From positions 1 through 33,104 of the IMG/VR virus record IMGVR_UViG_3300008267_000190: a stretch of 33,104 bases of DNA. One strand, written 5' to 3'. A program made the translations under genes and the position numbers. Within the stretch, counting starts at the first letter, position 1. Each line of letters starts with the position of its first letter. The notes below the pieces were generated by a model. That model worked only from the letters and a program-made list of their open reading frames with translations, was not told where the DNA came from and made no database searches. This DNA comes from a virus. Of the stretch, positions 27,286-29,943 are shown one piece after another.

Positions 27286-27531
27286 ATGATTAAATTTGAA
27301 AAGCTTGACACAAACGGTTTTCCTCTATATATTGTTGATGAAGTTGAGAACTGGAATAAATTTACAGAGTGGCTTTACCGCCTAGAAGATAAAGAAATGT
27401 CTCTTTCGTTTAAGAGTAATTTATATAGGTTTAGAACAGTAGAAGAAAGAATACAATTTGTATTCGGATTCATGAAAGCTTGGGATATTATTGACGACGC
27501 TTATTTGCAGAAGCGTCAGGGAGTTAATTAA
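27286..27531 (+). CDS. Small unknown protein upstream of uvsE
   Basis: The product has 81 residues from ATG 27286, which has TTGGAG correctly spaced. An in-frame ATG at 27262 lies in the hairpin and is rejected. The protein is mixed alpha/beta, with FPLYIVDEVENWNKFTEWLY, then SFKSNLYRFRTVEERIQFVF, then a final helix FMKAWDIIDDAYLQKR. I recognise no motif. Its stop overlaps the uvsE start by one base (TAATG), so the two are translationally coupled. Confidence 0.7.
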   Translation: MIKFEKLDTNGFPLYIVDEVENWNKFTEWLYRLEDKEMSLSFKSNLYRFRTVEERIQFVFGFMKAWDIIDDAYLQKRQGVN

Positions 27532-28460
27532 TGGCTTTAGGACTTTGCTGTCAGTGGCTCGAGCCTCGTACAAAACGAGACGGAACTCTTATATTTGAGA
27601 ATGCAATTGAAGAAAAAAGCCTGCAACTTGGAGCATATAAAAATGGAAAATACTCAACAGACCGAATTACTGAAACATATCGAAATAATGTCGAAGAACA
27701 CATCAGAATTTTTCCTTACCTCATTAAAGCACGCATCAAATCATTCAGATTGTCAAGTAGCCTTTTCCCGCTTTATGAATTCTGTGGAGACGATGCGCGA
27801 AATGATTCATACCTTATCTCTAGACTCGGAACTCTTGGACAAATGTTTAAGGACGCTGGCATTAGAGTCACAACGCACCCTGGACAATTCACAGTCTTAT
27901 CTAGCGACAAACAAAACGTCGTAGAAAATTCTATTCGCGAGCTGCAATACCATGCATGGATATTTGACGTAATGGGTTTTGACGAGACTCCTTACTATGC
28001 AATTAATATTCATGGTGGTAAAGCAAATCGCAGCGAGCAACTAATTAATGTAATTAATTCTTTGCCATCTAATGTTAAAAATAGACTTACGTTAGAAAAT
28101 GATGAGAAATGTTATGATGTCGTTCAGCTCTGCAATATTTTTCGCTCTTGTGGTACTCCTGTTGTTTTTGATTCTCATCATTTTCAGTTTAATATGGGAT
28201 CTCTTCATTTTGATGATGCATTTAACCTTTGCTGTGATACATGGGGTAATATTCGTCCTTTACAACATTTATCAAATAGTGAACCGGGTATGGAAAATGC
28301 TCCTTTCAACCAAAAAAGAGCGCATTCAAAAATGATCCATACAATTCCAGAGCTTCAGCTACAATATCTTAAAAAAGATCAAATTGATATTGACGTAGAA
28401 GCAAAAAATAAAAATCTTGCGATATTTAAGATGCGTAAAGATTTTGGAATTGAGGAATAA
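27531..28460 (+). CDS. uvsE: UV DNA damage endonuclease (UVDE/UvsE)
   Basis: The 309-residue protein is a TIM-barrel endonuclease that incises 5' to UV photoproducts and other lesions, starting alternative excision repair. Family motifs are all visible: LGLCCQWLEP at the start, SFRLSSSLFP (71-80), HPGQF (116-120), YHAW (140-143), NIHGG (159-163), LENDE (188-192) and DSHH (214-217), supplying the His/Glu/Asp metal ligands. Length is normal for bacterial UvsE (about 300). T4 itself uses the unrelated DenV, so this is a different repair solution. ATG 27531 overlaps the upstream TAA. It is followed without a gap by two cysteine-motif genes. Confidence 0.93.
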   Translation: MALGLCCQWLEPRTKRDGTLIFENAIEEKSLQLGAYKNGKYSTDRITETYRNNVEEHIRIFPYLIKARIKSFRLSSSLFPLYEFCGDDARNDSYLISRLGTLGQMFKDAGIRVTTHPGQFTVLSSDKQNVVENSIRELQYHAWIFDVMGFDETPYYAINIHGGKANRSEQLINVINSLPSNVKNRLTLENDEKCYDVVQLCNIFRSCGTPVVFDSHHFQFNMGSLHFDDAFNLCCDTWGNIRPLQHLSNSEPGMENAPFNQKRAHSKMIHTIPELQLQYLKKDQIDIDVEAKNKNLAIFKMRKDFGIEE

Positions 28461-29322: not shown

Positions 29323-29338
29323 CGTTGAGGAGAACAAC

Positions 29339-29786
29339 ATGGATAACGATGACCCGCAGGAGATGCTGATTAGTAAGAAGGATACCTCCAAGAAGACACG
29401 GAGGTATCTTCCAGTTAGCTAAGAAGCTTGCAGAGTGCTCTACCTATGGTAACTTTCGTCATGGCGCAGTTCTAGTGCGTGGCGGTGCAATTATTAATGT
29501 AGGTATTAATTCTGAGAAGTATTCTTCAATTGGAGCAAAGCATCGGCATGAGTCAAAGGGTGTTGCGACCTATCATGCAGAGCTCAAGGCGATGTTAAAT
29601 ATTGATCGTGCATTAACTAAAGGTGCAACTATTTATGTTGCTCGTTCTTCCAAGAAGAATCATGAAGATAGAATGAGTAAGCCTTGTTCTATGTGCCATG
29701 CTGTTATGGAAGAGCGTGGAATCTCGCAAGTATTTTATACTGTTGATAGTGAAGTTATTGGAACTTATAAGTTCAAGAAGGAATAA
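29339..29786 (+). CDS. dCMP/cytidine deaminase-family protein, encoded in two frames with a +1 shift
   Basis: The C-terminal frame (to TAA 29784-29786) carries the deaminase signatures HGAVLVRGG, HAE and PCSMC, with the catalytic Glu in HAE and Zn ligands from HAE and PCxxC. This frame has no start upstream: it is open back to a TGA at 29367-29369, with no ATG, GTG or TTG before GTG 29475, which would remove conserved residues. A well-formed ORF with TTGAGGAG starts at ATG 29339 in another frame and stops at 29420-29422 after 27 codons. A +1 shift after CTT (29408-29410) joins them as RRYL-QLAKKLAEC, a natural start for this family. The product is then 148 residues, with HAE at 79-81 and PCSMC at 115-119. 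It would supply dUMP for dTTP synthesis. An indel mutation or assembly error is the alternative. Confidence 0.75.
29381..29408 (+). repeat. 9-bp inverted repeat covering the frameshift Shine-Dalgarno
   Basis: GATACCTCC (29381-29389) pairs with GGAGGTATC (29400-29408) across a 10-base loop. It can be extended by a G-T and an A-T pair. It would hide the GGAGG element of the putative frameshift signal until a ribosome opens it. No T run follows, so it is not a terminator. Confidence 0.8.
29400..29411 (+). other. RF2-like +1 frameshift signal (GGAGG-TAT-CTT-C)
   Basis: In the frame of ATG 29339 the codons are CGG AGG TAT CTT CCA. The E. coli prfB site reads AGG GGG TAT CTT TGA. Both place an internal Shine-Dalgarno directly before TAT CTT, and CTT is the codon that slips +1. 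Here slipping CTT to TTC leads into the deaminase frame. The A-site codon is CCA instead of a stop, which is an important difference. Confidence 0.6.
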
Positions 29787-29787
29787 T

Positions 29788-29943
29788 ATGTTAAAATATA
29801 TTTTTATTATTAGTTTAGTGCTAACTTCTTGTTCTCATCACGAGTTAAAAACAAGAAAAGACTGCGATGATATTTGTTATCCGCAAAAAATTTCTTGGCA
29901 ACAAGAAAAATTACAATGCGTTTGTAGACCAGAAGTACGTTAG
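29788..29943 (+). CDS. Small cysteine-rich predicted lipoprotein
   Basis: The 51-residue product starts at ATG 29788, one base after the deaminase stop, with AAGGAATAAT upstream. It has a short basic start (MLK), a hydrophobic segment (YIFIISLVLTS) and a lipobox LTSC with the modified Cys at 15, so it is expected to be exported and lipidated. The mature part is about 37 residues, with four more cysteines (26, 30, 44, 46) that could form two disulphides. It is not proline-rich like an Rz1 spanin. Small phage lipoproteins include superinfection-exclusion factors that block receptors, but this is a guess. A strong terminator follows. Confidence 0.7.
   Translation: MLKYIFIISLVLTSCSHHELKTRKDCDDICYPQKISWQQEKLQCVCRPEVR

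Follow-up and report, generated by a model that had tools for sequence, protein, structure and literature searches.

Our analysis indicates that a putative dCMP deaminase of an uncultured phage is very probably produced at full length by programmed +1 ribosomal frameshifting, in which a strong internal Shine–Dalgarno (SD) sequence would drive slippage of peptidyl-tRNA(Leu) at a conserved prfB-like signal whose A-site codon is a sense codon. The gene lies in a 33,104-nucleotide stretch of viral DNA (IMG/VR record IMGVR_UViG_3300008267_000190, positions 1 to 33,104), referred to here as the window, and its features are listed in Table 1. Judged from the sequences of its relatives, the split gene is a conserved two-frame dCMP deaminase belonging to a family of uncultured aquatic phages.

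Table 1. Features of the split deaminase gene in the window.
Position	Strand	Feature	Basis or remark
29327..29332	+	Shine–Dalgarno GAGGAG of the deaminase start codon	Sequence
29339..29422	+	0-frame ORF, 27 codons plus TAA	Sequence; collinear with in-frame relative L006 and homologues
29381..29408	+	9-bp hairpin GATACCTCC/GGAGGTATC, this phage only, probably incidental	CCTCC upstream in 1/22
29399..29405	+	C plus internal Shine–Dalgarno GGAGGT (29400-29405), inside codons CGG AGG T..	Invariant in 22/22 distinct genes
29408..29411	+	Shift site CTT C (Leu codon for the P site, followed by the base that is skipped)	Would re-pair on TTC in +1; CCA (29411-29413) in the A site of frame 0
29412..29786	+	+1-frame ORF: remainder of dCMP/cytidine deaminase, with Zn motifs HAE and PCSMC, and stop	PF00383, PHROG 174

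The coordinates and two-frame organization given for this deaminase in the initial annotation were confirmed on the sequence. Translation from ATG 29339 yields MDNDDPQEMLISKKDTSKKTRRYLPVS and ends at a TAA (29420-29422). Codons 1–24 of this frame supply the N-terminus of the deaminase, including the start of helix 1, and the last three are read only by ribosomes that do not shift. The motifs HGAVLV, HAE and PCSMC are in the +1 frame, which begins with CAG 29412 and ends with TAA 29784-29786. This frame is blocked 14 codons upstream of its CAG, and a scan of it in the window found no ATG, GTG or TTG before GTG 29475, a codon that falls past helix 1, inside the first strand. When CTTC is read as one step, a seamless protein of 148 residues results, with RRYL joined to QLAKK. 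The match to PF00383 has an E-value of 1.2e-12 for the +1 part and 4.6e-14 for the joined protein, where it extends towards the N-terminus. The window deaminase also matches PHROG 174, the zinc motifs HxE and PCxxC are invariant in the deaminase alignments, and motifs and fold together place the protein in the deaminase superfamily. The assignment of dCMP as substrate is putative and indirect, drawing on the PHROG 174 match, the structural neighbours and the presence of ThyX in 7/9 records tested (ThyA was found in 0/9).

With respect to structure, an AlphaFold2 model of the in-frame relative L006 (pLDDT 91) adopts the dCMP-deaminase fold, its best Foldseek matches being the human, S-TIM5 and S. 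mutans dCMP deaminases and that of T4 (E 4e-5 to 2e-4). Helix 1 of this model spans residues 18–32, and the shift corresponds to residues 24/25, in the middle of the helix. The frame-0 part thus contributes half of helix 1, so that neither frame alone would be expected to yield the fold, and initiation at the first start codon downstream of the shift would remove the helix altogether.

Relatives were sought in several ways. A search with the +1 part returned five viral contigs at 78–79% identity, four of which are broken at CGGAGGTATCTTTCAGTTAGC, while the fifth, L006, has CGAAGGTATCTTTCGTTAGCC and an uninterrupted frame. A scan with a DNA pattern gave 22 contigs, every one containing the same split gene, and a looser pattern added two further split contigs. 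Because selection by the shift site itself had to be avoided, a protein-alignment search was run with the +1 part; it gave 198 relatives, of which 80 were kept. In total, 28 contigs other than the window, derived from about 20 metagenomes, contain the split gene. The homologue alignment proposed in the initial annotation shows that the frame break and its signal are kept: among relatives of at least 60% identity in the protein-alignment search, L006 has the only uninterrupted gene. Relatives at 44–51% are all in frame, typically reading ...RRYM-ELAK..., and +1 decoding preserves the exact length of these homologues (RRYL-QLAKK versus RRYM-ELAKR). The 0-frame stop varies among homologues in both type and place, falling 2–9 codons past the shift site. 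No relatives were found in bacterial or archaeal genomes, and a PDB sequence search gave no match; among cultured phages the best deaminase matches, at about 40% identity in Streptomyces phages, are too distant to test the shift.

All split genes share a common signal at the frame junction, C-GGAGGT-nn-CT(T/C)-Y, which places GGAGG 3 nt before the shift codon in 22/22 distinct genes. Most read TAT CTT C/T; L049 has TTT CTT C, and the pairs L044/L045, L047/L123 and L125/L126 have TTA CTC C. Codon-level counts were made on these 22 distinct split genes, which with L006 form a clade of 23 distinct members, and on 42 distinct in-frame relatives. Upstream of the shift codon, CGG and AGG are each fixed in 22/22 and TAT is found in 19/22, the remaining three differing in residue. 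The shift codon is CTT in 20/22 and CTC in 2/22, the skipped base is always C or T, and the first +1 codon is CAG in 21/22. Other conserved Arg columns use 4–6 codons, and conserved Arg and Leu columns overall use up to 6; CGG accounts for 1.4% and AGG for 5.7% of Arg codons in the window ORFs, with CGG at 1–2% in the other records tested. The pattern CGGAGGTNNCTYY occurs exactly once per record, always in the deaminase gene, in 11 records of 33–187 kb, and its reversed control has 0 matches in the same 11 records. The shift genes have predicted anti-SD pairing energies of −10.7 to −10.9 kcal/mol, compared with −4.0 in L006, −10.3 for a prfB-consensus sequence and a mean of −1.9 kcal/mol in the 42 distinct in-frame relatives, none of which (0/42) has GGAGG at the corresponding position. 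The initial annotation had proposed a programmed +1 shift from RRYL to QLAKK at an RF2-like GGAGG-3 nt-CTT site, and this conservation in relatives supports it. As a separate observation, the C of CGG at window position 29399 (−13 relative to the site) never varies (22/22), even though AGG, several times commoner than CGG in these phages, would also preserve GGAGGT; the reason may be avoidance of a stronger or shifted SD, or else the rare CGG codon may itself be important.

In phylogenetic terms, all split genes and L006 form one clade (100/100) in which L006 is nested (96/95), and on this tree the frame break was gained once and lost once. In L006 the extra base is missing and the internal SD reads GAAGG, weakened through a silent change; with its continuous frame and decayed SD, this relative serves as a natural control. 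Upstream of the junction, mismatches are concentrated at the third codon positions of frame 0, and downstream of it at those of frame +1. Close pairs have downstream dN of 0.04–0.12 against dS of 0.5–2.6, with dN/dS well below 1, and in the upstream leader, which is short and less constrained, dN is still below dS. These substitution patterns show purifying selection on either side of the junction.

In terms of mechanism, ribosomes would initiate at ATG 29339 and decode 24 codons in frame 0, which places CUU in the P site. The internal SD GGAGGU, whose last base lies 2 nt upstream (3 nt for GGAGG), would then base-pair to the 16S rRNA 3′ terminus and put the mRNA under strain, and peptidyl-tRNA(Leu) would move off CUU onto UUC/UUU ahead of any decoding of the sense codon (CCA, UCA or CAA). 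Decoding would resume at CAG, now in the +1 frame. Ribosomes that fail to shift would terminate within 2–9 codons, releasing a short peptide that lacks activity, so that shift efficiency would set the dose of an enzyme feeding dUMP to the phage ThyX. The ribosomal step itself, P-site re-pairing and the dosage role are what we infer from these patterns. tRNA-Leu(GAG) is able to re-pair on UUU or UUC, and the CUU-Y found in 20/22 genes permits such UUY pairing, whereas CUC-C (2/22) re-pairs poorly, with a middle mismatch on UCC. Since CUC-C is used by two separate lineages, with CCA or CAA in the A site, simple P-site re-pairing may not cover every member. In yeast, +1 shifting is possible without P-site re-pairing (PMC12661321), which leaves room for a second route in the CUC-C variants. 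The CTC C sites of L044, L047, L125 and L126 are in their own right possible cases of bacterial shifting without re-pairing.

As for what stimulates the shift, the A-site codon in all split genes is CCA, UCA or CAA, never a stop. The rare A-site codon or tRNA suggested in the initial annotation is not supported, as CCA, TCA and CAA are used at 18–30 per 1000 codons in these phages and, in the records where tRNAs were found, no phage tRNA consistently fits the A-site codon. Because these codons are common, there is no candidate for a slow step, the normal feeder of +1 shifting, and this counts against the model. The shift is therefore probably driven mainly by the strong SD, with an efficiency that we would expect to be moderate. 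The 9-bp hairpin noted earlier as a possible stimulus does exist in the window (29381-29389 with 29400-29408), but it is absent from the other 21 distinct homologues, CCTCC occurring upstream in the window only, and it was rejected as a stimulator. Downstream RNA structure gave no signal over column shuffles (z = −0.7). We also observed that the SD and shift site are themselves complementary, as GGAGG-UAU-CUUYC (window 29400-29412 and homologues) and, in the CTC-C variants, GGAG-GUUA-CUCC; the resulting hairpin is chosen by RNAalifold but is unable to form with CUU in the P site, and it may therefore be incidental.

The serious rival concerns purpose rather than the shift itself. An ancestor could have fixed an indel on a single occasion, along with a rescuing sequence, and its descendants could simply have kept both, as in the constructive neutral evolution proposed for Euplotes (PMC10235951). 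A non-regulatory origin of this kind is possible, although we consider it the weaker reading. It would accord with the single origin in the tree, with A-site codons that are varied and common and hence offer no obvious sensor, and with the reversion of the L006 lineage without apparent harm to the protein. However, a one-base deletion would free the gene from its signal, yet there is one reversion among 23 distinct members, down to about 60% amino acid identity, and the signal shows no variation at synonymous sites. That reversion is so rare speaks for some selective value.

Readings without a +1 ribosomal shift fare much worse. GGAGG is a perfect SD with a 0-frame stop nearby, and L002/L003 have an ATG upstream in the +1 frame, so one might suppose two separate polypeptides, the downstream part being initiated on its own at a non-AUG codon or by termination-reinitiation. 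Against this, there is no common start codon (the window's +1-frame ATC is TAC or TTC in L044, L047 and L049), neither the type nor the place of the 0-frame stop is constant, helix 1 would be divided in two, and the frame-0 codons for RRY are conserved and line up with those of in-frame relatives, all of which makes separate products very improbable. Transcriptional slippage, a −2 shift or RNA editing could each join the two frames and is, if anything, slightly less credible still: the site has no homopolymer longer than 3, a −2 shift would give one residue more than the in-frame homologues, and a review describes an SD 3 nt upstream of the shift site as specific for +1 ribosomal shifting, spacings of 9–14 nt being those for −1 (PMC5009743). 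A one-base frame break is also the usual sign of an indel error, but a sequencing or assembly error, or a decaying pseudogene, is almost certainly not the explanation: the identical break recurs in 28 further contigs, drawn from about 20 metagenomes, and each of 11 records contains CGGAGGTNNCTYY a single time, which argues against chance or error, and the catalytic motifs are intact, with low dN and high dS downstream.

The phages that carry the split gene are large, AT-rich myoviruses, and the window encodes a sheath, gp32, UvsX/RecA and a DnaB-like helicase. In a search for the host through cultured relatives, sheath and RecA reached only 30–34% identity, to Microcystis phage Mel-JY01 and others. 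The window also encodes a UvdE-type UV-damage endonuclease (27531-28460, + strand; PF03851, E = 3.7e-54) and, just 3′ of the deaminase, a short ORF (29788-29943, +) with a lipoprotein-like signal (MLKYIFIISLVLTSC...), possibly a small phage lipoprotein. Records L111 and L116 (168 and 187 kb) contain tmRNA genes (L111:14576-14865, − strand, RF00023; L116:16118-16406, − strand) with tags ANEDVEFESYALAA and ANDDVDSEFYALAA, as well as 10 and 26 tRNA genes.

With regard to role, the deaminase would supply dUMP for ThyX, and a frameshift that limits its output would determine the dCTP/dTTP balance. The control of deaminase level suggested in the initial annotation is plausible. A more speculative idea, which we think unlikely to be right, is a regulatory switch in which the strong SD competes with an ordinary sense codon, so that deaminase rises as elongation slows, the CUC-C lineages being driven by the SD without P-site re-pairing. 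If true, the slowing would correspond to low aminoacyl-tRNA or late infection, and the gene would be a sense-codon analogue of prfB that ties translation state to thymidylate supply. In this connection, a 2016 review states that no trans-frame product is known to arise specifically under starvation (PMC5009743). More generally, the sequences point to a prfB architecture that would work in a phage metabolic gene even though its A-site codon is a common sense one, and that has persisted across large divergence. The natural variants (CUU-C, CUU-U and CUC-C; A-site CCA, UCA and CAA; an in-frame revertant) offer material for probing SD-only +1 slippage and bear on whether sense-codon frameshifting serves as a sensor. 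For annotation, the consequence is that deaminases of such phages will be called truncated or overlooked.

Among known systems, SD-stimulated +1 shifting at CUU is the hallmark of prfB, the gene of release factor 2, where it is driven by a stop codon and release-factor scarcity. The phage gene shares with prfB the internal SD, the 3-nt spacing, the TAT spacer, the CTT P-site codon and an early shift that leaves nearly the whole enzyme in the +1 frame, as set out in PMC12421855 and PMC5009743. It differs in having sense CCA/UCA/CAA in place of UGA/UAA in the A site and GGAGGU in place of AGGGGG as the SD, and in using CUUC and CUCC as well. Because the product is a deaminase rather than release factor 2 and the A-site codon is sense, RF2 autoregulation cannot apply; in the RECODE set, every CUU-stop +1 case is prfB (PMC10885494). 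The dCMP deaminases of T4 (1VQ2) and cyanophage S-TIM5 (4P9C) resemble the phage protein in fold (Foldseek E 5e-5 to 2e-4, TM about 0.55–0.59) and zinc motifs. We know of no frameshift in either of their genes. The remaining comparisons follow PMC5009743. Listeria phages PSA, A118 and A500 (cps, tsh) likewise use +1 shifting, and PSA cps has a sense A-site codon (ACA_CCC_UCC), but theirs are structural genes with two products, a shift near the 3′ end, a proline CCC site and a pseudoknot or stop, and the passages on them report no SD stimulus. Yeast Ty1 and ABP140 (CUU_AGG_C) share the CUU P-site and sense A-site codon, but they are eukaryotic, have no SD and need a scarce AGG tRNA together with tRNA-Leu(UAG). 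Bacillus cdd, encoding cytidine deaminase, is a further case of frameshifting in a pyrimidine deaminase, although there the shift is −1 at CGA_AAG, extends the product, is called incidental and affects another family and position. In the open-access literature we found no earlier report of a frameshift in a dCMP deaminase. What appears to be new here, on the evidence of the sequences, is an SD-stimulated +1 shift of prfB architecture whose A-site codon is sense and whose product is a metabolic enzyme of a phage.
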